This document shows, piece after piece, positions 22,978 to 45,130 of a stretch of DNA of 64,000 nucleotides (positions are counted from its first letter, which is position 1; every line of letters starts with the position of its first letter). This stretch comes from Bradyrhizobium barranii subsp. barranii (GTDB taxonomy: Bacteria; Pseudomonadota; Alphaproteobacteria; Rhizobiales; Xanthobacteraceae): positions 4,075,501 to 4,139,500 of the forward strand of contig NZ_CP086136.1 of assembly GCF_017565645.3 (NCBI RefSeq). The letters are read 5' to 3'. Position numbers and translations under genes: made by a program. The notes beneath the pieces are model-generated. The model searched no databases, had not been told where the DNA came from, and was given only the letters and a program-made list of their open reading frames with translations.

Positions 22978-23607
22978 TCAGAAGTTCGCTGCCATTGCTG
23001 CGATGTGCTGATGGGCTCTTTCGCGGGCGGCCTCGATGGGTTGTTGCGGTCCGGTGGTCGGCCCGATCGGCACGAAACGGACATTGCTGATACCGATAAA
23101 GCGCAAAATTTCCCGCAGGTAAGGCGTTGCCATGTCGATGCGTCCGCGGTTCATTCCGGTGGCGAAATCGCTGCCACTGGCGAGGATCACCGTGGTCGGC
23201 CGGTCCTTCAGCAGCGGGAGATATCCCAGGGAGGGATCGAAACGAAAGGTGAGCCCGGGCTGGACGATGACATCGAACCATTGCTTGAGCTTGTAGGGAA
23301 TGCTGAAGTTCCACATTGGCGTCGAGATCAGCACACGATCGGCCAGTGAAAACCGCAGCGCCATCCGCTCCGCCTCGGCAAAGCTGTCCCGTTGTGCGTC
23401 GTTGAAGGGCTGCGCCTTCATGCGCGCATATTTGGCCTCGACGATGGGACCTGCGAATTCCGGCAGCCGCTCGCGCCAGAGATCCACGACGTCGATATCC
23501 CAGTCCGGACGGGCCTGCCGAAATCCGTCAAGAAAGACGCGCGCGCCGGCGCTCGACTCGGAGTCGGCGCGGGGCGAGCAGGAGAGGTGCAAAAGCTTTG
23601 CCACCAC
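22978..23607 (-). CDS. azoR: FMN-dependent NADH-azoreductase (flavodoxin-fold)
   Basis: The 209-residue protein matches AzoR: KLLHLSCSPRADSESS at the N-terminus with the FMN-phosphate loop, STPMWNFSIPYKLKQWFDVI near residue 95 and a VILASGSDFATG segment (family TSRGG-like) near 141. The GTG start at 23605-23607 abuts the stop of the SMP-30/isochorismatase fusion gene. AzoR enzymes are two-electron quinone and azo reductases. As the last gene of the long leftward run it could reduce a quinone formed by the pathway. Confidence 0.9.
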   Translation of the reverse strand: MVAKLLHLSCSPRADSESSAGARVFLDGFRQARPDWDIDVVDLWRERLPEFAGPIVEAKYARMKAQPFNDAQRDSFAEAERMALRFSLADRVLISTPMWNFSIPYKLKQWFDVIVQPGLTFRFDPSLGYLPLLKDRPTTVILASGSDFATGMNRGRIDMATPYLREILRFIGISNVRFVPIGPTTGPQQPIEAARERAHQHIAAMAANF

Positions 23608-25182
23608 TCATCCCAGCGCTCTGATGACGGCGTCCGCCCGGGTGACGATTGCGACGTTCTGCATGGCAAAATTGATCGAGGCGGAGTGCCAGTCGGCATT
23701 CATGGTCGAGCAGCAGTCTTCCGGCACAATCATGAAATAGCCCTTGTCGGCGCCGGTGCGCGCGGTGTGCTCGACCGACATGTTGGTCCATGCGCCGGTA
23801 TTGATGATCATGTCGCGCCCCGTGGCCTTGAGGATCGTCTCCAGCCGGGTGCCCTCCCAGGCGCTCATCCGCATCTTCTCGACGACGAAATCGCCGGGCC
23901 GCGGCTCGAGGCCGGAGACCGGGGCGGCGCCCCAGCTGCCGCGCACCATCGCCTTGCTGTCGACGAGACCCTCGAACAGCGGTGCGTTCAGCGTCACGCC
24001 GGGGGCGCCGGGCTCGACCACAAACCAGACGTGGATGATGGCGACGCCGCGCGCGCGAGCTGTCTCCGCCAAGCGCCGGACGTTCTCGACCACATGCTGT
24101 TGCTTCGCATGACCCGGTGCGCCTGACTCGGCGAACGCGCCGCCATCCATGATGACGTCGTTCTGAAGATCCTGGATGATCATGGCGCAGCGGCTCGGAT
24201 CGAGCCGCATCTCGCCGTCGGCGAGGATGGGCGCCGCAGAGGCGGGGCCGGCACTTGCGCCGCCGCTGCCGCGTTTGCCGCTCATATAGGGCTCGTGGCG
24301 CGGCCCGGCCTTGGTCGGGATCGAATAGACCGAATGCGTCGACGTCAAATAGAGCGTGCGGAAATCCGGGCCACCCCAGGCAAGGTTGGCGACGAGCTCA
24401 GGCACGCGGACTTTCCCGAGCAGCTCGCCGCGCGGTGAATAGACCCAGACGCCGCCGGGCGCGGTGACCCAGACATTGCCATGCTGGTCGCACTTCATGC
24501 CGTCGGGCAGGCCCGGCTCCAGCTCGGAGCGGATGCCGCTCGCAAACACGCGCGCGTTCGACAGCGAGCCGTCGCCGTTGACGTCGAATACGCGGATCAG
24601 CGCCTGCACGGTGTCGTTGACATAGAGCAGTTTCTCGTCGGGCGAGAAGCACAGCCCGTTCGGCTGGTCGAACAAATTGCGGTCCACCACGAGCGTCGGC
24701 TCGCCGCCGGGCATGACGCGATAGACGCCCTGGAAGCCGAGTTGGCGCGGCCGCTCGACGCCATAGACCGGCATGCGGCCATACCAGGGATCGGAGAAAT
24801 AGATGGCACCGGAGGAGTGCACGCAGACGTCGTTGGGGCTGTTGAGCTCCTGTCCCTGGAAGTGCGAGGCCAGCACCTCGTGCCGCCCGTCCGGTCGCTC
24901 ACGGATCAGCGACGAGGTCGCGTGCTCGCAGACGATCAGATTGAGCTCGGCATCGTAGGTCATGCCGTTGCATTTGTTCGACGGGCGCTTGACCTCCGCG
25001 ACGCCGCGCCGCGAATCCCAGCGTCGCCGCACGTCGCCCGGCATGTCCGAGAACAGGAGATAGTGATCGACCGGATGCCAGATCGGCCCCTCCGTGAAGT
25101 CAAAGCCCGTTCCGACCTGCGCGACCGGCGCATAGGGGTCGATCAGGCTCTCGAATTCGGAGCGCAAGGTGACGTGCGTCAT
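23608..25182 (-). CDS. Fusion of SMP-30/gluconolactonase and isochorismatase-like domains
   Basis: The 524-residue protein joins two enzyme folds. Residues about 20-295 form an SMP-30 beta-propeller lactonase with the expected metal ligands: E31 in TEGP, N117 in SPND, N175 in QPNG and D227 in PDG. A Gly/Ala/Ser-rich linker (about 300-322) leads to an isochorismatase-like domain (about 323-520). That domain has D338 in IIQDLQND and K436 in VVEKMRMSAW, but the usual catalytic Cys (TNVCVE) is Ser469 in WTNMSVEHT. The second domain may therefore not be a standard cysteine amidase. The fusion suggests sequential lactone and amide or vinyl-ether hydrolysis in one pathway. Confidence 0.88.
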   Translation of the reverse strand: MTHVTLRSEFESLIDPYAPVAQVGTGFDFTEGPIWHPVDHYLLFSDMPGDVRRRWDSRRGVAEVKRPSNKCNGMTYDAELNLIVCEHATSSLIRERPDGRHEVLASHFQGQELNSPNDVCVHSSGAIYFSDPWYGRMPVYGVERPRQLGFQGVYRVMPGGEPTLVVDRNLFDQPNGLCFSPDEKLLYVNDTVQALIRVFDVNGDGSLSNARVFASGIRSELEPGLPDGMKCDQHGNVWVTAPGGVWVYSPRGELLGKVRVPELVANLAWGGPDFRTLYLTSTHSVYSIPTKAGPRHEPYMSGKRGSGGASAGPASAAPILADGEMRLDPSRCAMIIQDLQNDVIMDGGAFAESGAPGHAKQQHVVENVRRLAETARARGVAIIHVWFVVEPGAPGVTLNAPLFEGLVDSKAMVRGSWGAAPVSGLEPRPGDFVVEKMRMSAWEGTRLETILKATGRDMIINTGAWTNMSVEHTARTGADKGYFMIVPEDCCSTMNADWHSASINFAMQNVAIVTRADAVIRALG

Positions 25183-25204
25183 CGGTCGATATCCTCAGGT
25201 CACG

Positions 25205-26053
25205 TCAGGCAGGGAACCAGTTGCGCGCAGGCAGCGACTGCACGATCGGGCCGGGGACCTGGTCGTGCAGCCGTCCGACGACCATGCCGCCCTCGATCTT
25301 GGCCGGCCTGTCGTGCACCGGCAGCAGATAGCGCGAATTGCTCAGGAGCTTCTTGATCGACGCCTTCTCGGCCCGCTTGCTGGTGCCGTGGTTTCCCGTC
25401 GTCCGCGGCTCCCAGTCGTGGATCTCGTTGAAGGGCGTGACGATCTGGTCGTTGAAGTCGTAGATCACGTCGCCGCAGATCGTCGCGATTCCGTCGGCTG
25501 TCTCGACGATGACGTTCATCGATCCCTCGGTATGTGCATTGGCCGCATCGCAATAGACGCCGGGCATCAGCTCGATAGGACCTGTGATCTCGAGGTCGAG
25601 GAAGCGCAGCGCACTCTTGGTGTGCAGTCGGTCGATGAGATGCTTGATGTCGGGCGCCGGATATTGCGGATGCATCAAGCCGGAGACGGAATATTCGAGT
25701 TCTTTCCGGTTGAGGACGACGGTCGTGTTCATCGGAAACAGATCGTCCTTGCCGGCGTGGTCGATGTGCAGATGGGTATGGCAGACGAAGCGGACGTCGC
25801 CCATGCGCACGCCGTGGCGGGCGAGCTGGTTCTCAATCATGTGCTCGTGGTATTGCAGGCCGCGCATCCCCAGCGTTTCCATGATCTGGTTGGAGCGGTA
25901 GCCGGTATCGACCACGACCGGATATTTGCCGCCGAGGATCAAAAAGCCGAGCGTGAGGACGCGGCGTGTGCGGCCGCAGTCGCGGCCGAGGACCAGAAAG
26001 CTCGATTCCAGCTCGATATCGCCATAGTCCAGGATCTTGATCTCCAGCGCCAT
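25205..26053 (-). CDS. Metallo-beta-lactamase-fold hydrolase, N-acyl-homoserine lactonase-like
   Basis: The 282-residue protein has the dinuclear-zinc motif CHTHLHIDHAGK (H94, H96, D98, H99). Further ligands are visible in DAANAHTEGSMN (near residue 175), TICGDVIYDF (near 197) and a C-terminal LLPVHDRP. It lies between the amidohydrolase gene and the SMP-30 fusion, 22 bases from the latter. It is only moderately similar to the protein at 6095-6928. In this setting a catabolic lactonase is the likeliest role, with AHL degradation as an alternative. Confidence 0.9.
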   Translation of the reverse strand: MALEIKILDYGDIELESSFLVLGRDCGRTRRVLTLGFLILGGKYPVVVDTGYRSNQIMETLGMRGLQYHEHMIENQLARHGVRMGDVRFVCHTHLHIDHAGKDDLFPMNTTVVLNRKELEYSVSGLMHPQYPAPDIKHLIDRLHTKSALRFLDLEITGPIELMPGVYCDAANAHTEGSMNVIVETADGIATICGDVIYDFNDQIVTPFNEIHDWEPRTTGNHGTSKRAEKASIKKLLSNSRYLLPVHDRPAKIEGGMVVGRLHDQVPGPIVQSLPARNWFPA

Positions 26054-26083
26054 TCGTTTCCCTCCCTGTTCTGTTCTTGTCTG

Positions 26084-26968
26084 TCAAAGCCGGTAGACGC
26101 GCGTCGCCGTCGTCCTGAAGATTGCGTCCTGCTGCTCGGTCGTCAGCCTCGCGGCTGCGGCACGAAAGGCGTCGACGAGCTCCGGATAGCTGGTCCACAA
26201 TTTCTCGATCGGAAAATTGGAGCCGAACAGGCAGCGCTCCGCGCGGAAAATCGCGACGGTATCGGTGAGGACGGCCGCGATGTGCGCGGGATCGTTGCGA
26301 TGGATGAAGGTGCCGAGCCCGGAGAGTTTTGAGACCACGTTCGGACAGGTTGCGAGCCGGGCCATCCCGGCGCGCCAGGCGGCCCGGCCCGCCGGCGAGA
26401 GGTCCTCCAGCATGCCGGCATGCTGGAGGATGAAGGTCACCCTGGGGCAGGACTCGGCGAGCAGCGCTGCATCCGGCATCTGCGGCGTGAAGACCTGGAG
26501 GTCAAAGCTCCAACCGTAATCGGCCAGGCGTGCGATGTTGCGGCGGACCATGGGATCGACGCAGAGATCGGGCTTGGCCGCGAAGCGATAGAGCGGATTG
26601 TCGTGCCAGTGCAGCTGCATGCGCACGCCGCGCACGAGCGGGTAGCGCTTCAGGCGATCGAGTTGCGGGCGCACGTCGTCGACGGCGAAATCGGCGTAGG
26701 CGACGATGGCATGCGGCCAGCCGTGCTCGTCGGCAGTCTGCTGGACCCAGGCTGCCTCGTCCTCGAAACGGTCGTTGGCCCAGTTGGTCTGGACATAGAC
26801 CGAACGGGTGACGCCGGTGCCCTTGAGGTCGTCGAGATATTCCCGGATCGGATAATCGCGACGGATCGGCTCGTAGGGTCCAAAGATGCGCGGCTGCATC
26901 GGGCCGGTCAGCCAGGGCAGGTCGGCCTGCCGCCAGATGTGATGATGGCCGTCGACAATGTCGCTCAC
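26084..26968 (-). CDS. Amidohydrolase family protein (TIM barrel, PDC hydrolase-like)
   Basis: The 294-residue protein starts with the metal-dependent hydrolase motif VDGHHHIWRQADLPWL (H-x-H region) and shows VRGVRMQLHWHDNP, FILQHAGMLEDL, NVVSKLSGLGTF and CLFGSNFPIEKLW, the order found in amidohydrolase-2 enzymes such as 2-pyrone-4,6-dicarboxylate hydrolase and L-rhamnono-lactonase. The GTG start overlaps the stop of the VWA gene as GTGA. A ring-lactone hydrolase role fits the neighbouring lactonases; the substrate is unknown. Confidence 0.9.
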   Translation of the reverse strand: MSDIVDGHHHIWRQADLPWLTGPMQPRIFGPYEPIRRDYPIREYLDDLKGTGVTRSVYVQTNWANDRFEDEAAWVQQTADEHGWPHAIVAYADFAVDDVRPQLDRLKRYPLVRGVRMQLHWHDNPLYRFAAKPDLCVDPMVRRNIARLADYGWSFDLQVFTPQMPDAALLAESCPRVTFILQHAGMLEDLSPAGRAAWRAGMARLATCPNVVSKLSGLGTFIHRNDPAHIAAVLTDTVAIFRAERCLFGSNFPIEKLWTSYPELVDAFRAAAARLTTEQQDAIFRTTATRVYRL

Positions 26969-28086
26969 GCCGCTCTCCTCCGTCCCAACGTCAGAATGTG
27001 CGCGACAATCGACGCGCTTGAACCGCCATCCACGAGATCATCGACGAAGGGCTGGATGGCCACCAGCGCCTCGGTCTGTGGGCGGAAGTCCGGGCCCGTC
27101 GCGAGCGGCGTCAGCCAGCTCACGCGCCAGGCGCGCCGCGACAGCTTTGCGACCGCGTCGCGTAACGCATCGACTTCGCCGCGCTCCAGCCCGTCCGACA
27201 CGACGACGACGGCCGCGCCTCGCGCGTAACCACCGAACCGCGGCACCGCGAGGAAGGCTTGCAGCGCGTCGCCGATGCGGGTGCCGCCATCCCAGTCGCT
27301 GACGAGGTGCGCCGCCGCGCTCAGCGCCTGCTCGCGCCGCTTGAGGCGCAACGGGCGGGTGACGCGGGTCAGCCGCGTGCCGAAGGTGAAGACCTCGACA
27401 TTGGGCGCGGCCTGTACCAGCGCATGCGCGAGCTTCATGTTCTCCTCGGTGCGCGTCTTCATCGAGCCGGAGACGTCAATCAGCAGCAGGAGTTTTCGTC
27501 GGCGCGGGCGCCGCTTCAGGTGCCCGAGCCGCAGGATCTCGCCGTCGTTCCGGACACACTCGCGCAGGGTTCGGCGAAGGTCGGCAAACGGCCCGCGGCG
27601 GGCGCGCATGCGCCGGTGGCCGCGACGCTGCGGCAGGCGCCGGGAGGCCTCGCGGGCCAGGCGCCGGAGCGCGTCGGTGGTGGAGAGCTGGGCGAAGCGG
27701 CGCTCCACCAGCGCCTCGGCGCGCGTCGCGGCGAGGCCGGATTCGTTGGCGTCGTCGGAGAACAGGGGTTCCTGTTCGCCGCGGCCCTCTTCCTGGAGCC
27801 GGACAGTCTCGTCGTCGTCGCCGTCATCGACATGTTCGATGGCTTCGCTGCCGCGGAAGTGCAGGTCGAACAGCCGGTCGAAGGTCTTGCGGCGCTCGGG
27901 TGGCGGGGCGAGTGTGGCCAGCGCCGATTGCCAGATGTCGTTGAGGTCGCGCGGCCCGAGCAGCTCGATCGCGGCGAGATAGGAGGTGGTCTGCTCGGGC
28001 GCGACGGCAAAGCCGTTGGCGCGCAGCAGCGCGACGAAGGAGACGAAGATGCGGGCAGCGCGTGGAAGCTCAGGCTCGGTGCTCAT
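26965..28086 (-). CDS. VWA-domain protein, CoxE-like
   Basis: The 373-residue protein has an N-terminal helical region (residues 1-180) followed by a von Willebrand factor A domain. Its metal-site motif is LLIDVSGSMKTRTEENMKLA (D-x-S-x-S), with later VEVFTFGTRLTRVTRPL and VVVSDGLERGE. This is the CoxE architecture. CoxE works with the MoxR-type CoxD ATPase in assembling the sulfurated molybdenum-copper site of CO dehydrogenase, and CoxD/CoxE homologues often accompany other molybdenum hydroxylases. Its ATG overlaps the stop of the AAA+ gene as ATGA. Confidence 0.9.
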   Translation of the reverse strand: MSTEPELPRAARIFVSFVALLRANGFAVAPEQTTSYLAAIELLGPRDLNDIWQSALATLAPPPERRKTFDRLFDLHFRGSEAIEHVDDGDDDETVRLQEEGRGEQEPLFSDDANESGLAATRAEALVERRFAQLSTTDALRRLAREASRRLPQRRGHRRMRARRGPFADLRRTLRECVRNDGEILRLGHLKRRPRRRKLLLLIDVSGSMKTRTEENMKLAHALVQAAPNVEVFTFGTRLTRVTRPLRLKRREQALSAAAHLVSDWDGGTRIGDALQAFLAVPRFGGYARGAAVVVVSDGLERGEVDALRDAVAKLSRRAWRVSWLTPLATGPDFRPQTEALVAIQPFVDDLVDGGSSASIVAHILTLGRRRAA

Positions 28087-28964
28087 GCGGTTGCCTCCGC
28101 GAGCATGACGTCGAGCCGGGGCGAGATGAAGTGCAGGTCTTCCTCGTCTTTCAGCGCCACGCCGATCGAGCATTTGAAGGCGTCGGGCCAGCGCGCACCG
28201 CCCTTGTGAAGGAGCGTCGCCGCTTCAGCCCAGTCGACGGCTTCCGCGATGCCTGGTGCCTTGCTGAGCGGCTCGCGGCGCAATTTGCCGACGGCCGCGA
28301 CGACGGCCCGCGCTGTCGCCTCGGCGACGCTGGAGGCCCGCAGCATCACGATACGCGCCTCCCGCTCTTCAGTGGGATAGTCGATCCAGTGATAGACACA
28401 GCGGCGGCGCAGGGCTTCGTGTAGGTCGCGCGTCCGGTTAGATGTCAGCACGACGACAGGACGTTCGGCCGCGCGCACCGTGCCGCGTTCCGGGATCGAG
28501 ATCTGGAAGTCCGAGAGAAATTCGAGCAGGAACGCCTCAAACTCCTGGTCGGCGCGGTCGATCTCGTCGATCAGCAGCACGGTGGAGTCGGGTGCGCGAA
28601 GCGTCGCCAGCATCGGCCGCTCAATCAGAAACGTCTCGCCATAGATGTCGATGCTCTCGTCGCCAGCCTGGCGGATCGCGAGCATCTGGCGTGGATAGTT
28701 CCACTCGTAGAGCGCGGCCGAGGCGTCGATGCCCTCGTAGCATTGCAGGCGGATGAGGCGGCGGCCGAGGACGGCGGCGATGGCTTTCGCGGCCTCGGTC
28801 TTGCCGACGCCGGGGGCGCCTTCGAGCAGGAGCGGCTTGCCGAGGGCAAGGCCGAGATAGGCCGCGGTCGCGAGCCCTTCATCGGCGAGGTAATAGGCTG
28901 CCCGAAGCGCCTTCTCCAGCGCTTCGGGGCTGTCGATGCCAACGATGTTGCTGCGGACTGCCAT
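28083..28964 (-). CDS. MoxR-family AAA+ ATPase, CoxD-like
   Basis: The 293-residue ATPase shows Walker A GAPGVGKTEAAKAI near residue 50, a conserved RLQCYEGIDASAALYEWNYP segment characteristic of CoxD-type MoxR proteins, Walker B VLLIDEIDRADQEFEAFLLE and sensor-1 VLTSNRTRDLHEALRRRC. It starts at the ATG at 28964; an open frame continues upstream but without family similarity. With the CoxE-like VWA protein it probably matures the molybdenum hydroxylase encoded directly upstream. Confidence 0.92.
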   Translation of the reverse strand: MAVRSNIVGIDSPEALEKALRAAYYLADEGLATAAYLGLALGKPLLLEGAPGVGKTEAAKAIAAVLGRRLIRLQCYEGIDASAALYEWNYPRQMLAIRQAGDESIDIYGETFLIERPMLATLRAPDSTVLLIDEIDRADQEFEAFLLEFLSDFQISIPERGTVRAAERPVVVLTSNRTRDLHEALRRRCVYHWIDYPTEEREARIVMLRASSVAEATARAVVAAVGKLRREPLSKAPGIAEAVDWAEAATLLHKGGARWPDAFKCSIGVALKDEEDLHFISPRLDVMLAEATA

Positions 28965-28972
28965 GGCCAGTC

Positions 28973-32900: not shown

Positions 32901-32902
32901 TG

Positions 32903-36736: not shown

Positions 36737-37570
36737 TTATCGCGCGCCGATCGCCTTGAATTTGCGTACCTGATCCGTCAGCGCCCGCTCGACCGGCAGC
36801 CGCTCCATCGAGGAGGCGCCGTAAAAGCCGTGGCAGTAGCGGGTGTTCTTCATGATGAAATCGGCGTCGTCCGGATCGGCGATCGGTCCGCCGTGGGCGA
36901 GCACCAGAATGTCCGGATTGACGCTGAGCGCGGCGGAGGCCCAGGTATCGATGCGCGCCGGGCAATCCTTGAGCTTGGGCGCGGTCTGCGCGCCGATGGT
37001 GCCCCCGGTCGTGAGGCCGAGGTGACAGACGATGATATCCGCGCCCGCGATCGCCATCGCGGCGGCTTCCTTCTCGGTAAAGACGTAGGGCGTCGTCAGC
37101 AGGTCCTTCTCGCGCGCCTTGGCGATCATGTCGATCTCGAGCGCGTAGGACATGCCGGTCTCTTCGAGATTGGCGCGGAACACGCCGTCGATCAGGCCGA
37201 CGGTCGGAAAGTTCTGCACGCCGGCGAAACCGAGGGCCTTCAGCTGGTCCAGGAAAACGTCCATGTCGCGGAACGGATCCGTGCCATTGACGCCAGCGAG
37301 CACTGGCGTTTTGGTCACGACGGGCAGCACTTCGCCGGCCATCTCCAGCACGATGGCGTTGGCGTCGCCATAAGCCATCAATCCTGCGAGCGAGCCGCGG
37401 CCGGCCATGCGATAGCGGCCGGAATTGTAGATGACGATGAGATCGACGCCACCGGCTTCCTCGCACTTGGCCGACAGGCCGGTGCCGGCGCCGCCGCCGA
37501 TGATGGGCTCGCCGCGCTTTGCCATGTCGCGGAAGCGTTTCAACAGTTCTGCGCGTTCAAACCGGGCCAT
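36737..37570 (-). CDS. Phosphoenolpyruvate hydrolase-family TIM-barrel protein
   Basis: The 277-residue product matches the PEP-hydrolase-like family (PF09370 type): [20 protein letters not shown] near residue 25, [20 protein letters not shown] near 47, [13 protein letters not shown] near 88, [10 protein letters not shown] near 120 and [11 protein letters not shown] near 183. The family name is historical and its reaction is poorly defined. It adjoins a Tm-1-like domain (fused to LivF in the next gene); the two families recur together in other genomes, and together resemble the two halves of Tm-1-type plant and fungal proteins. Confidence 0.88.
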
Positions 37571-37573: not shown

Positions 37574-39787
37574 TCACCTCGCTAGTCTCCGGCGCGCCCC
37601 GGTGCGGCCGAACGAGGTCCGGAACGCGCTGACAATGATGGAGGCGAACTCGGGATCGTTGATGTTCTTGGGGACGCGGATGAGCTGACGGTTGGCGGTC
37701 TGCCGCACGTTCCGCTCCAGCGCACGGAACAGCGCCGCATCGGCATCGGGATCCCAGAACGGCTGTCCTCGTGTATCGAGCGCGGAGACGCCGCCCTCGG
37801 GCAGGAAGAAGCGCACCGGGCCGTCCATCTGGTTGAGCCGATCGGCGATCCAGCGGCCCATGCGTTCGTTTTCCTCGGCCGTGGTCCGCATCAGGGTGAC
37901 CTGGGGGTTGTGGACGTGGAATTTGCGGCCGCGGTAGCGCTCGGGAATGGTGTCCGGGGCGCCGAAATTCACCATGTCGAGCGCGCCCACCGAGCCGACG
38001 TAAGGCAGGCGGCCGCGGATGATCGCACCAAAGCGGTCGTCGGTTGCCGGGAACACGCCACCCATCAGGAGATCGCAGATTTCCGTGGTGGTGAGATCGA
38101 TGACGCCGGCGATCTGCCCGGAATCGACGAGCTTCTCCATTGAGCGGCCGCCAACGCCGGTGGCGTGGAACACGAGGCACTCAAAATCCTCGCGCAGGTC
38201 GGCCGCGATCTTCTGGACCGCCGGCGTGGTGACGCCGAACATGGTGATGCCGACCGACGGCAATCCGCCATCGCCGAGATCCTTCCGCGCGTGCTGATCG
38301 AGGCGCGCCCTGACCATGCCGGCCAGCGCATTGGCGCCATTGGCGAGCACGGCACGCGAGATCGAGTTGAGGCCCTGCACGTCGGTGACCGAATGCATCA
38401 TGGTGATGTCGGCGGGGCCGACATAGGGTCCGACGTCGCCGGAGGCGACGGAGGAGATGATCAGCTTGGGCACCCCGACGGGGAGGGTCCGCATCCCCGG
38501 CGCGACCAGTGACGCTGCGCCCGAGCCGCCCGCCGAAATCACGCCGGCAATATTGCTCTGGCGTCGCAGCCAGCTGGCGAAGGCATCGGCCATCGCGGTG
38601 ACGGCAGCGCCGCGGTCGGGTCCGAACACCGCCGATCCGCCGCGCCCATGGTTCAAGGCAATCTCCTGGGCAGAGACGTCGCTGGTTGCGTGCCGGCCGC
38701 TGGTGGAGACATCGACCAGTCGCGTGCGCAGGCCGCTCCCGGCGATGATGTCGCGGATGAAGCGAAGCTCCGTGCCCTTGGTGTCGAGCGTGCCGACGAC
38801 GAGCACGACCGGGGGGCCCTGCGTTTGCGCCGCGACCGGCTCGCGCCGGCGCCGGGCGGTCTCGTCGAGACGCGCCACCTGGGTCGAGAGCGTGCGGGCG
38901 GCGGCCTCGATGCGGGCGATCGGGACCGGCTGCGACCATCGGGTGGGGGGCGTCGGGTTGGAGATGTAGACGCGGATCGGGCCGCCTGGACGGGACGGCT
39001 GCGGTGCGGCCTTCGCCCCGGTGCCTGCAGCCGGCACGTCGACGGCGGGCTCGAGCTCGGCGTGGAGGCCGACGCCGAGCAGGCGCTGCTGCAACTCCCG
39101 GTCCGCGGCAAGGCGCGCGGAATCGATGATGCGGTTGATGCGGCCGTTGACCATGATCGCGACGTTGCGCGAGACGGCCGTGGCCACACCGATGTTCTGC
39201 TCGATCACGAGCACGGACATGTCGCCGTCCTCGCCAAGCCGTACCAGCATCTCCTCGACCTGGGCGACGATGACGGGCGCAAGCCCCTCGGTCGGCTCGT
39301 CCATGATCAGGAGCTGCGGATTGGTGAGCAGCGCGCGGGAGATCGCCAGCATCTGCTGCTCGCCGCCGGAGAGCTGGCCGCCGCCATGGTCCTTGCGCTC
39401 GGCCAATCGCGGAAAGGTCTCGTAGATGCGCTCGACCGTCCAAGCCCCGCGCCGCAGGCCCGCGGCAAGCTGCAGATGCTCGTCGACGCTGAGCGAGCGC
39501 CACAGCCGCCGGCCCTGCGGCACGTAGCCGACGCCAAGCCGAGCTATGTGGGCGGGCGGCCGCCGGGTGACGTCGTCGCCGCGGACGCGGATCGAGCCGC
39601 CGCTGACCGGCACCAGCCCCATGATCGCCTTGCACAGCGTGGTCTTGCCCATGCCGTTGCGACCGACCACCGAGAATACGCCGGCTTCGAGCGTCAGGTC
39701 CACGCCTTGCAGCGCATGCGAATGCCCGTAGTAGACGTCGAGGCCGCGGACTTCGAGGGCGGCGGCGGAGCGGCGGACCTCATTCAT
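37574..39787 (-). CDS. Fusion of LivF-type ABC ATPase and Tm-1-like (UPF0261) domain
   Basis: In this 737-residue protein, residues 8-245 form a complete LivF ATPase: Walker A VGRNGMGKTT (41-50), Q-loop YVPQGRRLW, signature LSGGEQQ (139-145), Walker B LLIMDEP (159-165) and VIEQN. Residues about 246-325 are a Pro/Ala/Arg-rich linker. Residues 326-735 form a Tm-1-like ATP-binding domain with VGTLDTKGTE (331-340), SAGGSGAASL (418-427), FHATGVGGRSME (540-551) and FLPEGGVSALD (661-671). The ATG overlaps the livG stop by eight bases. A transporter ATPase fused to this enzyme-like domain suggests direct coupling of import with a first processing step. Confidence 0.92.
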   Translation of the reverse strand: MNEVRRSAAALEVRGLDVYYGHSHALQGVDLTLEAGVFSVVGRNGMGKTTLCKAIMGLVPVSGGSIRVRGDDVTRRPPAHIARLGVGYVPQGRRLWRSLSVDEHLQLAAGLRRGAWTVERIYETFPRLAERKDHGGGQLSGGEQQMLAISRALLTNPQLLIMDEPTEGLAPVIVAQVEEMLVRLGEDGDMSVLVIEQNIGVATAVSRNVAIMVNGRINRIIDSARLAADRELQQRLLGVGLHAELEPAVDVPAAGTGAKAAPQPSRPGGPIRVYISNPTPPTRWSQPVPIARIEAAARTLSTQVARLDETARRRREPVAAQTQGPPVVLVVGTLDTKGTELRFIRDIIAGSGLRTRLVDVSTSGRHATSDVSAQEIALNHGRGGSAVFGPDRGAAVTAMADAFASWLRRQSNIAGVISAGGSGAASLVAPGMRTLPVGVPKLIISSVASGDVGPYVGPADITMMHSVTDVQGLNSISRAVLANGANALAGMVRARLDQHARKDLGDGGLPSVGITMFGVTTPAVQKIAADLREDFECLVFHATGVGGRSMEKLVDSGQIAGVIDLTTTEICDLLMGGVFPATDDRFGAIIRGRLPYVGSVGALDMVNFGAPDTIPERYRGRKFHVHNPQVTLMRTTAEENERMGRWIADRLNQMDGPVRFFLPEGGVSALDTRGQPFWDPDADAALFRALERNVRQTANRQLIRVPKNINDPEFASIIVSAFRTSFGRTGARRRLAR

Positions 39788-40562
39788 GGCCGCCTCCGAG
39801 GTAAAGCTCCTGCACCTCTGGATCGGACTCGATCTCCTGCGGCAGGCCTTCCTTGAAGATGCGCCCGTTGTGCATCATCGTGACGCTCTCGACGACGCGT
39901 AGCGCCACGTCCATGTCGTGCTCGATGATGATGTAGCCGATATGCGCCGGCAGCGAGGTCAGGATCTCGACCAGCTCGGCACGCTCGGTCGGAGACAGGC
40001 CCGCGGCCGGCTCGTCGAACAACACGAAGCGCGGCGCGCCGGCGAGCGCCAGTGCGATCTCGAGCTGACGCTGCTGGCCATGCGCAAGCTCCGCGACGCG
40101 CTGGTCCTTCACGCCTGTGAGATGGACGGCCTGCACGAGATTATCGGCCGCGCTCATCAGCGCGTCGTTCTGTCCGGGGCGCAGGAACGAGAAGGGTCCG
40201 CGCGAGACGCCGCGGCAGGCGAGGTAGACGTTGTCCTGGACGGTGAGACCGGGAAAGAGCGCTGAGATCTGGTAGGTCCGGCGCAGGCCGCGGCGGATGC
40301 GCTCGTAGGGCGGGAAGTGGGTGACGTCCTCGCCGAAGAACCGGATGGTGCCGGAGGAGGGCGGGAAATCGCCGGTGATGCAGTTGAACAGGGTGGTTTT
40401 TCCGGCACCGTTCGAGCCGAGCACCGCGCGCCGCTCGCCGGGGCGCACGGTAATGGTGACGTCGGTGAGCGCGGCCAGCGCGCCGAACAGGCGCGTCACG
40501 CCGCGAAGCTCCAGCGCCGCGCCGGCGCCGACGGCTGAGAGGCGTTGCGCGACGCTATCCAT
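39780..40562 (-). CDS. livG: Branched-chain amino acid-type ABC transporter ATP-binding protein (LivG)
   Basis: The 260-residue ATPase has Walker A LGSNGAGKTTLFNCITGDFP, the LivG-type RTYQISALFPGLTVQDNVYL, signature-region LAHGQQRQLEIALAL (LSGGQ variant AHGQQ, common in LivG) and Walker B FVLFDEPAAGLSP with YIIIEHDMDVAL. Its start overlaps the livM stop by eight bases and its stop overlaps the LivF-Tm-1 start. It is the second ATPase subunit of the importer. Confidence 0.94.
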   Translation of the reverse strand: MDSVAQRLSAVGAGAALELRGVTRLFGALAALTDVTITVRPGERRAVLGSNGAGKTTLFNCITGDFPPSSGTIRFFGEDVTHFPPYERIRRGLRRTYQISALFPGLTVQDNVYLACRGVSRGPFSFLRPGQNDALMSAADNLVQAVHLTGVKDQRVAELAHGQQRQLEIALALAGAPRFVLFDEPAAGLSPTERAELVEILTSLPAHIGYIIIEHDMDVALRVVESVTMMHNGRIFKEGLPQEIESDPEVQELYLGGGHE

Positions 40563-41664
40563 GACCGGATCCTTGACCAGATCCTCGGCCGTGACGTTCG
40601 CTTGAACGGGCCGCGCCGGATCGCTGGCGCTGTCGCCAGCTCTGCCAGAGCCCGATCACGCCGTCCGAGGACCAGAAGACGATGACGAGGAAACCGAGGC
40701 CGATCAGCAGCCGGAAGCGGTTGCCGTCGAGCCCGAGCTTGACCAGGAAGTCGAGCGCGAAGGTGCGTAGCAGCACGAAGATCAGCGCGCCGATGAAGGG
40801 GCCGATGGGACGCGTGATGCCGCCGACGACGGCGATGATGAGGATATCGATGCAGGCGCCGACGCTCACGGATCCCGGCGAGATCTGCCCGTAGTTCCAG
40901 ACCTGGAGAACGCCGGCCAGCGCCGCGACAAAGGACGCGAAGGCGTAGGCGGCGACGCGGTGCGCATTGACGTTAAAGCCGAGCGCCGCCATGCGGCGGG
41001 GATTGTCGCGCACACCTTGCAGCGCCAGGCCGAATGGTGCGCGGGAGATGTATTCAACGGCGAAGTAGCACAGCGCAGCAACCGCGAGCACGATATAATA
41101 GAAAGGAATGTCGGCGCGCCAGTTGACGCCCCAGAAATGCGGCGTGGCGACGGTGTTGATGCCGGTATGGCCGTTGAAGATCGCCCAGTTCTGGTTGGTG
41201 AAATAATAGAAAGCCGCGCCGATCGCGAGCGTGATCATGATGGTGTAGATGCCCTCGGTGCGCACGGCCAGCGCGCCGCCAAGCGTGCCGAACAGGGTCG
41301 CGAGCGCGAGCGCCATCGGGACCGCGAGCCACCACGGCCAACCTAGGCTGATATTGGCGTTGCCGCTGACGCCGAACACCGCGACCATATAGGCGGAGAA
41401 GCCTGCGATGGTGAGCTGCATCAGGCTGACCATGCCGCCGTAGCCGGCGAGGAACATCAGGCTCAGCGCCATGATGCCGAGGATCAGCGTGGTCGCAAAG
41501 ATCTCGATCAGGAAGAAGCCGTTGGCTATCAGCGGCATGATCAGGAGAATGGCCGCGACAATCCAGGCTGCGGGATTGTTGATCTCCGGCCATCCGCGCA
41601 AGGTGGGGCGCTGCGCGGCTGCGGCGGGACGAACGGTGACGCGGGCGTCGTGGGCGAGCGACAT
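40555..41664 (-). CDS. livM: Branched-chain amino acid-type ABC transporter permease (LivM)
   Basis: The 369-residue membrane protein has a cytoplasmic N-terminal extension (about 28 residues), then the LivM pattern ALSLMFLAGYGGMVSLMQLT near residue 82 and about nine hydrophobic segments. It has a QGVRDNPRRMAALGFNVNAH coupling loop near residue 216 and an Arg-rich C-terminus. Its start is one base after the livH stop. It is a different system from the LivM at the left edge. Confidence 0.94.
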   Translation of the reverse strand: MSLAHDARVTVRPAAAAQRPTLRGWPEINNPAAWIVAAILLIMPLIANGFFLIEIFATTLILGIMALSLMFLAGYGGMVSLMQLTIAGFSAYMVAVFGVSGNANISLGWPWWLAVPMALALATLFGTLGGALAVRTEGIYTIMITLAIGAAFYYFTNQNWAIFNGHTGINTVATPHFWGVNWRADIPFYYIVLAVAALCYFAVEYISRAPFGLALQGVRDNPRRMAALGFNVNAHRVAAYAFASFVAALAGVLQVWNYGQISPGSVSVGACIDILIIAVVGGITRPIGPFIGALIFVLLRTFALDFLVKLGLDGNRFRLLIGLGFLVIVFWSSDGVIGLWQSWRQRQRSGAARSSERHGRGSGQGSGHG

Positions 41665-41665
41665 C

Positions 41666-42676
41666 TCAGCGCCTCGCCAACAGGCCTTGCGGCCGGACTG
41701 CCAGTACCAGCACCATGATCAGGAAGGTCACGACGATGGCGTAGGTCGGGATGTAGACCGAACCAAGCTGTTCGGCGAGGCCGATGATGAGCGCGCCGAG
41801 CGCGGCACCGGGGATCGAGCCCATGCCGCCGACGATGACGACGACGAGCGAGGCAAGCAGGAAGCGGATGTCTTCGCCAGGCGAGAGAGACTGGAAGGTG
41901 CCGCCGACGACGCCGGCGATGCCGGCAAGCCCGGCACCGAGCGCAAAGACCAGCACGAAGACGAGCTGGTTCCGCACTCCGGTCGCGGCCAGGATGTCGC
42001 GATCGTCGACACCGGCGCGGATGATCATGCCGATGCGTGTGCGGTTGAGCGCCAGCCACATCGCCAGGCCGATCACGACGGACGCGGCGAAGATCACCAG
42101 CCGGACCAGGGGATAGCGGAGATAGACCGGTTCGCCCGAGGATTTCACCGCAGTGACCAGCGGCAGCTCGATCGGGCCGATCAGCCAGTTCGGTGTCTGG
42201 ATCTGATAGAAGTCGCCGCCGCAAGCCCACAGCATGAGATCGGCGAAAACGATCGAGAGACCGATCGTCACCATGGTCTGCCGCAAGTCCTGGCCTTCCA
42301 TGCGGCGGAAGACGATGAGCTGAAGCAGGACGCCGACCAGCGCCGTCAGGATGAAGGCGACGATGAAGCTGAGGAGCCAGGAGCCGGTCGAGGCGCTGAT
42401 GGCGTAGCCGACATAGCCGCCGAACAAATACAGCGAGCCGTGCGCGAGGTTGACGTTGCGCATCAGGCCGAAGATCAGGGTGAAACCGCTGGCGACAAGG
42501 AAGTAGAGGCCGCCGAGCGTGATGCCGTTGAACACGGCGTTCAGGAAGACCCGCTTGCGGCCGATCGCCTCTTCAAGTCCGGGCGGCCACACCGCCAAGG
42601 TCAGCCACAGTGCGAGCGCGATCGCGACGATCACGATCAGGGCCCAGGCCGGATGACGTTCGACGAAGCGCGTCAT
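41666..42676 (-). CDS. livH: Branched-chain amino acid-type ABC transporter permease (LivH)
   Basis: The 336-residue membrane protein has an N-terminal extra span (WALIVIVAIALALWLTLAVW) and then the LivH core: GGLYFLVASGFTLIFGLMRN, NVNLAHGSLYLFGGYVG and the coupling loop IRAGVDDRDILAATGVRNQL near residue 225. It is the first gene of the 18-gene leftward run, and the 239 bases upstream (to the AraC gene) are the likeliest promoter region for it. Confidence 0.94.
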   Translation of the reverse strand: MTRFVERHPAWALIVIVAIALALWLTLAVWPPGLEEAIGRKRVFLNAVFNGITLGGLYFLVASGFTLIFGLMRNVNLAHGSLYLFGGYVGYAISASTGSWLLSFIVAFILTALVGVLLQLIVFRRMEGQDLRQTMVTIGLSIVFADLMLWACGGDFYQIQTPNWLIGPIELPLVTAVKSSGEPVYLRYPLVRLVIFAASVVIGLAMWLALNRTRIGMIIRAGVDDRDILAATGVRNQLVFVLVFALGAGLAGIAGVVGGTFQSLSPGEDIRFLLASLVVVIVGGMGSIPGAALGALIIGLAEQLGSVYIPTYAIVVTFLIMVLVLAVRPQGLLARR

Positions 42677-42915: not shown

Positions 42916-43743
42916 TCAGGCCCGCAAAACCTTGGCGGCGCGGCGGTAATCGGTCGGCGCCATCCCGACATTGGCGGTGAAGAAGCGTGTGAAGCCGCTT
43001 TGCGAGGAGAAGCCGAGGTCGAAGCCGATGTCGGCGATCGGTGCTTCGCCGGCGACAAGGGCTTCCAGCGCCTGTTCCATGATCAGGGTGTTGAGGTAGA
43101 GATGCGGCGTGACGCCGGTCTGGGTGCGGAATAGCCGGTAGAAATGCGGTCGCGATAGGCCGGATTCGCGCGCGATCGTGTCGAGCTCCATTTCGGCGCC
43201 CGGACTTTCCGACATCAGCTTGATGCATTTGCGCACGCGGAAGTCGGTGACGGCGCCGGCCGTGCGCGCGTCGCGCGCGATCTCGGCCTGCTGCCAGCTT
43301 TCGTCGTAGCAGATGTCGATCAGCCGCCGCAGCTCGGCATCGAGGCTGGAGAGCGACGGTGCGCCGCACACAAGCGCTGCGGTTCGTCTGATGTGCTTGT
43401 CGAGTGCGACCGTGCGCTTGAACTGGGTGCGGCCGAAACGCAGGCGGTCGGCGCCGGGCGCATCGGGGGCGAACCACTCCGGATTGACGTAGAGCACGAA
43501 GAAGATCGCGCCACCGTCGAGATCGGACGGCAGGAAATTGTGAGGCTCCCAAGGATTGACCGCGACGATGGAGCTTTCCGTAAGGTCGTAGTGCCCGTTA
43601 CAGACGTCGATGCATGCGGACTGGCCGCCAACATGGAAGATCAGATGACCTTCGCGATGTGCGTGCACGTTGAAGGGGCGGTTCAACTGATAGACCGTCG
43701 CCCGACCGAACCGGCCGTGAAAGACGGCAAGCGCCCGGCTCAT
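42916..43743 (-). CDS. AraC family transcriptional regulator
   Basis: The 275-residue regulator has an N-terminal cupin-like sensing domain (VHAHREGHLIFHVGGQSACI near residue 24, SSIVAVNPWEPHNFLP near 57). Its C-terminal double helix-turn-helix has DTIARESGLSRPHFYRLFRT near 187 and ADIGFDLGFSSQSGFTRFFT near 238, then VGMAPTDYRRAAK. It lies between the binding-protein gene and livH in the same direction and is the obvious activator candidate for the operon. Confidence 0.94.
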   Translation of the reverse strand: MSRALAVFHGRFGRATVYQLNRPFNVHAHREGHLIFHVGGQSACIDVCNGHYDLTESSIVAVNPWEPHNFLPSDLDGGAIFFVLYVNPEWFAPDAPGADRLRFGRTQFKRTVALDKHIRRTAALVCGAPSLSSLDAELRRLIDICYDESWQQAEIARDARTAGAVTDFRVRKCIKLMSESPGAEMELDTIARESGLSRPHFYRLFRTQTGVTPHLYLNTLIMEQALEALVAGEAPIADIGFDLGFSSQSGFTRFFTANVGMAPTDYRRAAKVLRA

Positions 43744-43879
43744 GCCTTCCCTCCTGAATGTTCTTGTCTTTTCAGTCAGCGTTCAACAACCGGGGCGAGA
43801 TTGCAAGAGCGCAAGATATCGCGCCTGCAAATCGCTCCCGGTTGCCGGAGAGCATGCGAAACGAGCGACGGTGAATGCG

Positions 43880-45130
43880 TCAGTACTTCTTACATTCCGG
43901 GACCGTGCGGCTCGGCAGTCCGATCTTGGCGAACACCGCCGGATCGTAACCGAGCGTCTGGTTCACGTTCGGGATCACCTTCACGACCTTGCTGAACAGC
44001 GCGCCCTTGCCGTCATCGACGACCTCGGTGACGAAGTTGGTGCCGATCGCCTGGCGGTTGGCGTCAAGCTTGATCTTGCCGTTCGGTGCGTCGATCTCGA
44101 TCTTGGCCAGCGCCTCCTTGTACTTGGCCTGGTTGTTGGAAAGATCGCCATTGACCTCACGGAGCGCGAGGATCAGCGCCATGGTCGAGCCGTAGTAGTT
44201 GGTCGCAAGAAGCGATGGGCTCGGGAAGCGCTTGTTGGGCGGAAACGCGTCCTGATACGCCTTCACGAACTTCTGCCAGCCCGGATCCTCCCAGGTGTCG
44301 GCTTGGCCGCTCGCCGCGATGGTGCCGACCAGCGCATTCTTGGCGTTGCCCTTCGAGGACAGGATGGTCTGGTCGATCATGATGGAGCCGCCCATCAGAT
44401 GCGCCTTGCCGCCGGCCTGCTGGTATTGGTTCAGGAAGTTGACGGCATCCGCACCGCCGAGGCCGAGATAGATCGCATCGACATCGTCGGGCAGCGCCGC
44501 GATGACGGAGGCAAAATCCTTGGTGCCGAGCGGCACCCATTGCCGGTTGGTGACCTGGCCGCCGGCGCCGCAGAATTCGAGCACGAGGCCGAACACCTGG
44601 GTGTAGATGAAGGAATAGTCCTCGCCGACGGTCGCGATCTTGCGATATTTCTTGGTTTCATAGGCGTATTTGCCGAGGCCCACCTGCCACTGCGCGCCGT
44701 CCATGTTGTAGCGGAAGAAGTTCGGAGCGGGATCGACATAGGTCGTCTCCTGCGCGCCGGATGCCGCATTGATGAAGGTCAACTCGGGATGGGTCTTAGC
44801 GAAGTTCTTGACCGCAATGCCCTCGTCGCCGGAGAGAGGCGACAACAGGATCTGCACCTTGTCCTGCTCGATCAGCTTGCGCACGGCGCGCACCGCGGAA
44901 TCCGGTGTCGCGTCGGTCGAGGCAACGATGAATTCAAGCTCTTTGTCGCCGACCTTCTTGCCAAGCACATTGAGCGCCGTCTGGTGGCCGCGCATGCCGT
45001 CCTCGCCGAGCACCGTGTAGGTGCCTTCCAGCGTTGCGGTGACGCCGACCTTGATCTTTTCCTGGGCGATTGCCGCGCCTGAAAGGAAAAGGCTGCTTAG
45101 CGCGATCAGTCCCACACTGCATTTCAACAT
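43880..45130 (-). CDS. Branched-chain amino acid-type ABC transporter substrate-binding protein
   Basis: The 416-residue periplasmic protein starts at the ATG at 45130 with GGAGGAATGAA just upstream. It has a signal peptide (MLKCSVGLIALSSLFLSGAA, cleaved near AIA-QE), then the Peripla_BP_6 fold with IKVGVTATLEGTYTVLGEDG, ILLSPLSGDEGIAVKNFA, SDTTYVD-like contacts and DAIYLGLGGADAVNFLNQYQ. It presumably delivers substrate to the LivHMGF importer encoded downstream, with the AraC gene between. Ligand class cannot be read reliably; relatives bind amino acids, amides and aromatic acids. Confidence 0.92.
   Translation of the reverse strand: MLKCSVGLIALSSLFLSGAAIAQEKIKVGVTATLEGTYTVLGEDGMRGHQTALNVLGKKVGDKELEFIVASTDATPDSAVRAVRKLIEQDKVQILLSPLSGDEGIAVKNFAKTHPELTFINAASGAQETTYVDPAPNFFRYNMDGAQWQVGLGKYAYETKKYRKIATVGEDYSFIYTQVFGLVLEFCGAGGQVTNRQWVPLGTKDFASVIAALPDDVDAIYLGLGGADAVNFLNQYQQAGGKAHLMGGSIMIDQTILSSKGNAKNALVGTIAASGQADTWEDPGWQKFVKAYQDAFPPNKRFPSPSLLATNYYGSTMALILALREVNGDLSNNQAKYKEALAKIEIDAPNGKIKLDANRQAIGTNFVTEVVDDGKGALFSKVVKVIPNVNQTLGYDPAVFAKIGLPSRTVPECKKY

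Follow-up and report, generated by a model that had tools for sequence, protein, structure and literature searches.

Among the described molybdenum enzymes, the aerobic CO dehydrogenase is encoded in the cox operon of Oligotropha, in which the molybdenum hydroxylase with its FAD and FeS subunits is accompanied by a MoxR ATPase and a VWA protein. A second relative is the enzyme of PDB 3hrd, which we take to be the nicotinate dehydrogenase of Eubacterium barkeri with separate FeS and FAD subunits; we know of no linkage of this enzyme to a flotillin. In encapsulins, enzymes carry a short conserved C-terminal cargo-loading peptide after a flexible linker. To our knowledge, what bacterial flotillins hold together is an open question. 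For human flotillin, the available part of PMC11260169 states that the length of the wall helices likely influences the size of the cage, and plant Tm-1L is described in the available part of PMC5028733 as a fusion of UPF0261 with a TIM-barrel partner. In the literature searched, no enzyme function was found for the bacterial Tm-1/UPF0261 and PF09370 families, whose structures have been solved.

In the present study, we analysed an operon in a 64,000-nucleotide stretch of Bradyrhizobium barranii subsp. barranii (the window; contig NZ_CP086136.1, positions 4,075,501 to 4,139,500). The following features were identified by the open reading frame listing and Pfam scans:

43880..45130, minus strand: Liv-type periplasmic binding protein, upstream of AraC (PF13458, E 3.8e-47)
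42916..43743, minus strand: AraC-family regulator (PF12833)
41666..42676, minus strand: LivH permease (PF02653)
40555..41664, minus strand: LivM permease (PF02653)
39780..40562, minus strand: LivG ATPase (PF00005)
37574..39787, minus strand: LivF ATPase fused to Tm-1-like UPF0261 (PF00005, PF06792, PF23189)
36737..37570, minus strand: PEP-hydrolase-like TIM barrel (PF09370, E 1e-129; PDB 2p10, E 1.5e-120)
33799..36711, minus strand: giant flotillin, 970 aa (PF01145, PF15975)
33352..33789, minus strand: SRPBCC protein 1 (PF10604)
32903..33346, minus strand: SRPBCC protein 2, GTG start set from relatives (PF10604)
32082..32900, minus strand: FAD subunit of the Mo hydroxylase (PF00941, PF03450)
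31599..32075, minus strand: 2x[2Fe-2S] subunit of the Mo hydroxylase (PF01799, PF00111)
29995..31587, minus strand: MoN, N-terminal half of the Mo subunit (PF01315, PF02738)
29998..30183, minus strand: proline-rich linker and C-terminal peptide of MoN (peptide RFSSVFGTRRR at 29998-30030)
28973..29995, minus strand: MoC, C-terminal half of the Mo subunit (PF20256; best PDB match 3hrd_B)
28083..28964, minus strand: CoxD-like MoxR AAA ATPase (PF07728; NF047784 267 bits, below the cut-off of 475)
26965..28086, minus strand: CoxE-like VWA protein (PF05762, E 1.1e-46)
26084..26968, minus strand: Amidohydrolase_2, fuconolactonase-like (PF04909; NF052480 104.7 bits, cut-off 400)
25205..26053, minus strand: metallo-beta-lactamase-fold hydrolase, lactonase-like (PF00753; lactonase matches weak)
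23608..25182, minus strand: gluconolactonase-like (SGL) and isochorismatase-like hydrolase, one fused gene (PF08450, PF00857)
22978..23607, minus strand: AzoR-like flavodoxin-fold reductase (PF02525)

The sequence-only reading had described the eighteen leftward genes from LivH (42676) to AzoR (22978) as contiguous, and this was borne out: gaps are at most 30 bases, with several overlaps. From the likely starts, the spacing from LivH toward AzoR is 1, overlap 8, overlap 8, 3, 25, 9, 5, 2, 6, 11, overlap 1, 8, overlap 4, overlap 4, 30, 22 and 0 bases. AraC and the binding protein lie upstream of this run, separated by 239 and 136 bases; the start of the binding protein was placed at a signal-peptide-like Met, and the listed frame extends to 45382. 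Most domain calls of that reading also stood, except that the SRPBCC proteins matched PF10604 and not CoxG, and that gluconolactonase and isochorismatase form one gene. Its expectation of co-occurrence in other genomes was supported by a set of 36 loci taken around Tm-1-like matches (selected by that match, not at random), of which 29 are collinear as far as contig or stretch reaches; the others are L035, cut by a contig end, and 6 with an unfused Tm-1 and without the operon. Within the 29, the amidohydrolase match is absent in L027 and CoxE is partial in L044, while the AzoR match is absent in L019, L032 and L033 despite about 1.9-2 kb past the gluconolactonase-isochorismatase gene; AzoR is thus a less fixed member of the operon. 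Gene order is mostly kept in Bradyrhizobium and other alphaproteobacterial families, and the conservation of the operon is far beyond chance. Shared regulation was likewise supported by published B. diazoefficiens transcriptomes, where the apparent orthologues of the cluster go down together in a phaR mutant and seven of them go up in a nasT mutant. No functional study of the cluster was found in the literature searched, where two papers name it among regulated genes.

The cluster is a merger of two modules that also exist separately, the one comprising the importer, the LivF-Tm-1 fusion and the flotillin without molybdenum genes, and the other comprising the split molybdenum hydroxylase, CoxD and CoxE without flotillin. 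In L163 and L165-L168, an AraC regulator 33-35% identical adjoins the flotillin-less molybdenum operon. The merger coincides with two changes not noticed in the sequence-only reading, namely a linker and tail on MoN and a longer flotillin rod.

The enzyme is a xanthine-oxidase-type molybdenum hydroxylase, as Ald_Xan_dh_C, MoCoBD_1, MoCoBD_2, FAD_binding_5 and Fer2/Fer2_2 are all above the Pfam cut-offs. Its large subunit is encoded by two ORFs here and in 29 relatives, and MoN terminates before MoC in the complete copies compared; hence a frameshift or sequencing artefact was rejected. The same division is seen in operons that lack flotillin and corresponds to the one in nicotinate dehydrogenase: MoC residues 4-331 align to residues 3-328 of 3hrd_B, with the split at the MoCoBD_1/MoCoBD_2 border. 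Judged by its gene architecture, the enzyme is a nicotinate dehydrogenase-like split hydroxylase. An identity as aerobic CO dehydrogenase was rejected because both halves, scored separately, fall far below the cut-offs for the large subunit, MoN with 176.9 bits and MoC with 119.1 in TIGR02416 (cut-off 991), and 166.9 and 146.3 in NF040766 (cut-off 950). MoN carries TAMRGFG, where CO dehydrogenases presumably have AYxCSFR or AYRGAGR. The neighbouring SRPBCC proteins had been read as CoxG-like, but PF10604 was the only family returned for either in Pfam (E <= 0.001), and no CoxG match was obtained at that threshold or in NCBIfam (E <= 1e-5); by family search, this assignment was therefore rejected. 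SRPBCC proteins also accompany Tm-1/PEP-hydrolase loci without hydroxylase.

In the operon, MoN has gained a proline-rich linker that ends in a conserved peptide. Among 139 distinct complete MoN sequences (loci with MoC missing or MoN cut, L177, L190 and L209 among them, were dropped), a flotillin was in view for 120, and 119 of these end in RF...RRR and one (L191) in RRR only. The tail was found in none of the 12 loci without flotillin over at least 8 kb viewed upstream, where MoN stops 23-27 residues past the last conserved block and lacks both linker and tail; the other seven, at contig or stretch ends, were left unjudged (six with the tail, one without). Outside Bradyrhizobium, RF...RRR was present in 30/31 flotillin loci, with RRR alone in 1/31, and in 0/12 loci without flotillin, five being unjudged. 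Between the last conserved block and the final 11 residues lie 79-170 residues with a median proline content of 33% (115 tail-bearing copies measured). Within the genus, the 11-residue length and the RFSS..G pattern are nearly uniform. Among the 31 copies from outside, RFS(S/T) occurs in 20, RFAS in 5, RFIS in 5 and neither in 1, and the G is absent in some (L188), so that across families the constants are mainly RF and RRR. The view that S and G are as fixed was rejected, since it rested on 95 motif-picked sequences requiring them. A protein search with the tail region only (MoN residues 518-566 of L133) gave no match at E <= 1 and is thus uninformative about other tagged proteins.

A second short island, PTRWS, lies at residues 281-285 in the linker of the LivF-Tm-1 fusion, in which both UPF0261 domains are present (PF06792 197 bits, PF23189 309 bits). 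Of 135 distinct fusions, each with a flotillin in view, 134 carry the form (T/N/P)RW(S/T/G/N). The sole exception is L095, counted as a miss although a different frame of this draft gene encodes the island. In L162 and L164 it reads PNRWN, which escapes a TRW-based pattern that allows S, T or G in the next position. Where flotillin is lacking (14 loci), Tm-1 is encoded on its own. The island resembles the MoN peptide, and the likeness of RFSS to TRWS, being short, could be due to chance. From 10 similar rows (88-98% identical to the first), AlphaFold2 modelled the fusion at a mean pLDDT of 42.9; this poor model carries no information about docking and was not used.

From its Band_7/SPFH and Flot domains, the giant protein is assigned to the flotillins (PF01145 67.2 bits, PF15975 131.5 bits, both above the cut-offs); it gave no match to PDB sequences. 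An N-terminal hydrophobic helix is followed by the SPFH domain, a rod with a 44-residue period and the Flot domain, and the rod is free of proline from residue 196 to 800. Measured between two landmark blocks, the rod has 402 residues in 7/7 flotillins without molybdenum genes and 581-834 residues in 100 flotillins with them. At least 33 flotillins in which a landmark block could not be located were skipped; L067 and L125, listed without molybdenum genes in this measurement, belong to the same genus and lie at contig ends. Besides the merged operons, the flotillin is found in 12 loci that have the importer module but no molybdenum genes of this type in line, and in L162 and L164 without hydroxylase; hence it was rejected as a hydroxylase-specific partner. 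For the membrane-docked uptake and oxidation complex proposed earlier, the link between hydroxylase and flotillin was upheld by the tail, which occurs only in flotillin operons among the loci judged, but the flotillin is evidently not confined to operons with the hydroxylase. As a separate observation, weak and unproven, the amidohydrolases of sister operons have an N-terminal extension with (F/Y)xxW(G/A/S)G in 7 of 10 sequences; that of L139 reads PTRWSG, and both of L146 are without the extension.

We tentatively favour, at a little short of even confidence, a merged uptake-and-oxidation operon on a flotillin scaffold, to which the tail and the island dock the hydroxylase and the importer. 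The Liv-type importer would take up a small substrate, and its LivF ATPase is covalently joined to the Tm-1-like enzyme through the poorly conserved linker. The hydroxylase, built from MoN, MoC, FeS and FAD subunits, would be matured by CoxD and CoxE. The end residues RFSSVFGTRRR of the proline-rich MoN tether would dock onto the flotillin assembly, and so would the PTRWS island, by which importer, Tm-1 enzyme and hydroxylase would be kept at one membrane site; the oxidised product, a lactone or a lactam, would then be ring-opened by the hydrolases. We infer the binding by tail and island, the flotillin as their partner and the chemistry; an N-heterocycle, a lactone and a sugar-like lactol are all possible substrates. 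A more specific version, which is conceivable but doubtful, takes the membrane-bound flotillin cage as a size-tuned reaction chamber, the wall helices having been lengthened by repeat expansion on gaining the hydroxylase, which would enter together with the importer-bound Tm-1 enzyme via the RF...RRR tail and the P-T/N-R-W island. On this version, the same scaffold with its shorter rod may hold other enzymes in sister operons without hydroxylase, namely an SRPBCC-quinone-reductase fusion, a fumarylacetoacetate hydrolase and an amidohydrolase.

In the MoC tree, the match of tail and flotillin maps to a single branch with good support; three flotillin-undecided loci were labelled apart in this tree, raising the number of changes. 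It therefore represents a single event, which leaves room for other partners or a lipid. It is rather unlikely, in our estimate, that RF...RRR is a lipid-binding foot on an anionic membrane, with a flotillin that merely shapes the membrane and no protein partner needed. Such a foot would agree with a short, aromatic and strongly basic tail, with RF and RRR as the most constant residues across families while S and G vary, and with flotillins being membrane proteins, but the near-uniform length and RFSS..G pattern within the genus go beyond the need of a lipid, an argument weakened by the close relatedness of the genus. Docking of the hydroxylase to SRPBCC 2, to the LivF-Tm-1 fusion, or to CoxD/CoxE during maturation, with the flotillin as a bystander, also appears unlikely. 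SRPBCC 2 is present in 117/117 and LivF/Tm-1 in 116/117 flotillin loci with at least 8 kb upstream in view, and SRPBCC 2 and the fusion were gained on the same branch as the tail; yet CoxD and CoxE occur in most tail-less operons (11/12 and 10/12), and L187 has the tail and the flotillin with LivF/Tm-1 absent from the 14 kb view. The PEP-hydrolase was rejected as a required tail partner, as it was not found beside the operon in 4/117 of these loci.

That the conserved MoN end is mainly a translation signal, its AGG AGG being the ribosome-binding site of MoC, which starts at the stop codon, seems highly improbable. Codons -3 and -2 are indeed AGG in 90/95 and 70/95 motif-picked copies, adjoining the MoC start. 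Against this, L134 encodes RRR as CGG CGG CGC and L135 as CGC CGG CGC, which shows that other constraints act besides the overlapping AGGAGG. RFSS precedes the signal, and in the same 95 copies the peptide shows synonymous variation at its R, F and S codons. In five tail-less operons, the MoC start likewise lies no more than a few bases from the MoN stop. As the sole cause of the tail, the ribosome-binding site is largely refuted by the codon data. There is equally little to expect from an ordinary catabolic operon that neither flotillin nor tail helps to organise: an importer together with an oxidase, its maturation proteins and hydrolases makes a usual set and similar molybdenum operons exist without flotillin, but the tail and the linker island stay conserved amid poorly conserved stretches in many families.

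Compared with the known systems, the large subunit is split at the same place as in nicotinate dehydrogenase, whose medium subunit (3hrd_B) is the best match of MoC. With the cox operon, the locus has in common the molybdenum hydroxylase, the FAD/FeS subunits, the CoxD-like MoxR ATPase and the CoxE-like VWA protein; it differs in the split large subunit (MoN 176.9 versus 991 bits) and in an SRPBCC pair without a CoxG match. The UPF0261 and TIM-barrel partners are those of plant Tm-1-like proteins (PDB 3wry, 3wrw), whereas in this operon the TIM barrel has a gene of its own and UPF0261 is joined to LivF; if the favoured docking holds, this would place the bacterial Tm-1/UPF0261 and PF09370 families, with their solved structures, in a first context. 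With the flotillin/SPFH cages (human FLOT1/2, HflKC), as far as described in the available part of PMC11260169, the flotillin has the SPFH and Flot domains in common, as well as an extended wall-helix region, with a rod of about 600 residues versus 44-189 in the proteins compared there; it differs in its 44-residue repeat and in an operon shared with enzymes. In the present case, the flotillin is part of a catabolic operon, and the tag on the candidate cargo enzyme follows it in every locus judged; this suggests an ability of bacteria to attach metabolic enzymes to flotillin scaffolds. Pfam scans found no encapsulin-type shell family among the genes of the operon. As with encapsulin cargo, MoN has a linker followed by a short C-terminal peptide, and the candidate scaffold here is the flotillin.

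In the present study, the packed leftward run from livH to azoR that had been claimed by the sequence-only reading was borne out. In the ORF listing of the window, which belongs to a host genome of 11.4 Mb, 18 genes follow one another on the minus strand and no intergenic gap exceeds 30 bases. The features are listed below, the operon in its reading order; MoN and MoC are the N- and C-terminal halves of the split Mo subunit.

22978-42676, minus strand, first part: LivH, LivM, LivG, LivF-UPF0261 (Tm-1-like) fusion, PF09370 PEP-hydrolase-like protein
Same run, minus strand, middle: 970-residue flotillin, two SRPBCC proteins, FAD subunit, FeS subunit, MoN, MoC
Same run, minus strand, last part: CoxD-like ATPase, CoxE-like VWA protein, amidohydrolase, metallo-beta-lactamase-fold (MBL) hydrolase
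Same run, minus strand, end: gluconolactonase-isochorismatase fusion, then AzoR-like reductase
Immediately upstream of the 18-gene run: AraC regulator and binding protein
17041-22906, plus strand: separate sugar-type ABC transporter operon that points toward the cluster from its azoR side (binding protein, two permeases, GFO/IDH/MocA oxidoreductase, ThuA-like protein, LacI regulator)

This operon is a conserved unit. The conserved co-occurrence of its genes, which had been proposed as a check, was confirmed among relatives, as gene order was retained in 29 of the 36 fetched loci up to the limits of the stretch or contig; this count admits loci in which single genes were not found (L019, L027, L032, L033 and L044), and the rest are L035, which is cut, and six loci with an unfused Tm-1 elsewhere. 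A near full-length LivF-Tm-1 fusion was present in 27/36 same-genus genomes (own included) and in four of 24 further genomes from the order, with one of these copies cut by a contig end. In the species collection of loci of the first SRPBCC protein (SRPBCC 1), the best 80 of 356 relatives were all Bradyrhizobium. This protein was matched at E <= 1e-25 in 35 of the 385 genomes of the class-level sample and at E <= 1e-40 in 19 of the 398 genomes of the phylum-level sample, all 19 from the same class.

The window operon joins an importer-flotillin module and a Mo-hydroxylase module, since the two also occur separately. Surroundings were fetched for 28 of the 35 class-level genomes, the other seven being the window's genome, another Bradyrhizobium genome and five with weaker matches. 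The window-type arrangement was found in four loci (L132-L135). Twelve sister loci (L136-L141, L143-L147 and L149) hold the importer, LivF-Tm-1 fusion, PEP-hydrolase, flotillin and SRPBCC 1 with no Mo genes of the window type in line; in L144, a distant, unsplit Mo hydroxylase lies nearby in opposite orientation. In 9/12 of these sister operons, SRPBCC 2 clusters with a protein bearing a C-terminal zinc-type oxidoreductase, identified by Pfam in L138 only; this is the second domain to which SRPBCC 2 is fused in L136-L139, L141 and L143-L146. Some carry a fumarylacetoacetate hydrolase, alpha/beta hydrolase and amidohydrolase where Mo genes would be, and relatives of these L138 enzymes were found in five, four and nine of the loci, respectively. 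Flotillin was not found in L148 and L151-L159, some of which hold the importer, Tm-1, PEP-hydrolase and SRPBCC 1; L142 and L150 were too short for judgement. The Mo genes occur with neither flotillin nor fusion in view in another 12 loci (L163, L165-L168, L201-L203 and L205-L208). FAD, FeS, MoN and MoC were present in all of them, CoxD in 11 and CoxE in 10, together with an amidohydrolase (8/12), AraC (7/12) and SRPBCC (6/12), the counts below 12 being partly due to stretch ends. Both modules are present, apart, in the genomes G486 (L162/L163) and G545 (L164/L165), each having one operon with flotillin that lacks Mo genes and one flotillin-less Mo operon whose MoN has no tail. Neither the LivF-Tm-1 fusion nor the PEP-hydrolase was found within the 14 kb viewed of L187, a locus that has Mo genes with the tail, flotillin and both SRPBCC proteins.

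The tail is a C-terminal extension of MoN, which in flotillin-type operons extends beyond the last conserved block, through a proline-rich stretch, to a conserved terminal peptide. Among 139 distinct complete MoN, flotillin was in view for 120, and 119 of these end in RF...RRR; the other (L191) ends in GTRRR without RF. For 12 MoN, the 8 kb or more viewed upstream held no flotillin; none of these has the linker or tail, and all stop 23-27 residues past the conserved block. Seven were undecided for flotillin because of contig or stretch ends, six with the tail and one (L204) without. The variants include RFSSVFGTRRR (the window), RFSSISGFRRR, RFASISGLRRR and RFISGTRRR, and the 31 flotillin-linked tails from outside the genus comprise 20 with RFS(S/T), five with RFAS, five with RFIS and one with neither, so the fixed parts are RF and the terminal RRR. 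In the window (about 29998-30006) and most relatives, the final AGG AGG arginine codons of MoN are also the likely ribosome-binding site of MoC. Since RRR is retained through other codons in L134 and L135, and the codons upstream of it vary synonymously, the tail peptide itself is under selection.

The linker of the LivF-Tm-1 fusion is poorly conserved apart from one island. Where the hydroxylase is present, this island is mostly SNPxxPTRWSxPVP; in many operons lacking the hydroxylase, it is PPTRWSxxxW. The pattern (T/N/P)RW(S/T/G/N) was found in 134 of 135 distinct fusions; the exception, L095, is a draft gene with an interrupted LivF-Tm-1 frame and has the island in another reading frame. 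The motif was not found in the Tm-1 of 14 flotillin-less loci examined, where Tm-1 is a separate protein. Amidohydrolases of the sister operons bear an N-terminal extension with an aromatic-x-x-W-G/A/S-G pattern in 7/10 cases; that of L139 reads PTRWSG, resembling the island, and both amidohydrolases of L146 are without the extension.

The rod, the long repeat region between the SPFH and Flot domains of the flotillin, has a period of 44 residues (four hendecads), which ranked first or second in strength in 21 of the 24 tested flotillins and was not among the top periods in those of L144-L146. The window flotillin has no proline at residues 196-800 and four glycines past residue 203. Where both landmark blocks were found, the rod between them measured 402 residues in all seven flotillins of operons without Mo genes and 581-834 residues in 100 flotillins of operons with them. 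Total ORF lengths were 558-690 without Mo genes (735 in L162 and 756 in L164, stop-to-stop) and 872 upward with them, shorter ORFs of the latter kind (427, 573, 175 and 525) being cut by contig ends. In the available part of a paper on the human complex, SPFH wall helices span 44-189 residues and their length likely influences overall size (PMC11260169). A rod consisting of a single helix would imply a much taller cage. The sole other flotillin gene of the genome lies outside the window (G000:C1:5406022-5406375, 583-residue frame).

We suggest that the tail docks the hydroxylase, and flotillin has close to an even chance of being its partner. In a MoC tree of 52 rows, 37 flotillin rows (+2 undecided) were split from 12 flotillin-less rows (+1 undecided) by one branch with support 100/99, so the tail-flotillin match reflects a single evolutionary event and cannot by itself tell flotillin from other genes gained or lost then. 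Another operon protein could therefore be the partner, which we consider unlikely; about equally improbable, the tail, with its fixed RF and RRR, may bind lipid. The R-aromatic-S likeness of tail and island, although short, hints at a common partner. With flotillin as that partner, the Liv importer would take up the substrate, the Tm-1 and PEP-hydrolase-like proteins may carry out a first step or activation, the docked hydroxylase, matured by CoxD and CoxE, would carry out the oxidation, and the hydrolases may open the ring, with flotillin keeping the components near one membrane site by way of the tail of MoN and the island of the fusion.

The hydroxylase domains are of the xanthine oxidase family and reached no NCBIfam equivalog cut-off. 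The amidohydrolase (fuconolactonase-like), SGL domain and MBL protein all belong to families that include lactonases. Next to the flotillin-less Mo operons at four loci checked are sugar-type transporter genes (L166), an aldehyde dehydrogenase (L168), a 6-phosphogluconate dehydrogenase (L205) and a RES-domain protein (L203). Given these families and neighbours, a lactol or sugar-like substrate yielding a lactone is as likely as an N-heterocycle; the nitrogen option stays because of the isochorismatase-type domain and the nasT response.

The Bradyrhizobium diazoefficiens entry for the fusion (P0082), 89% identical overall to that of the window, is named bll3382, a tag that we take to be of strain USDA 110; other tag numbers were assigned by counting and published descriptions. 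In the available part of one transcriptome study, on a phaR mutant, bll3369-bll3384 are reported to drop over fourfold and are labelled a polyketide synthesis cluster (PMC6201568). This label perhaps comes from the name of the SRPBCC proteins, polyketide cyclases; the genes point to catabolism, not polyketide synthesis. Under denitrifying conditions, bll3369 (gluconolactonase), bll3376 (coxS), bll3377 (coxM) and bll3383-bll3386 were 2.3- to 5.4-fold higher in a nasT mutant, and bll3386 was reported as induced in symbiosis; bll3371, bll3373, bll3375 and bll3380-bll3382 are not named in the available part of that paper (PMC6759348). It labels bll3383 a permease and bll3384/bll3385 ATPases, which disagrees with our counted order LivG, LivM, LivH. 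These data fit shared regulation and a tie to nitrogen/carbon status, without proving one transcript. The available parts of both papers hold no study of the function of the cluster.

In our literature search, the cluster surfaced solely in these two studies, among the regulated genes, and no functional study of the module, tail or island was found. Should flotillin turn out to act as a scaffold that loads enzymes, the system could be of a categorically new kind. The component families are all known, and the split hydroxylase and the CoxD/E set are of known kinds. The closest PDB match of MoC is the medium subunit of nicotinate dehydrogenase, in which the Mo subunit is split in the same way as MoN and MoC.
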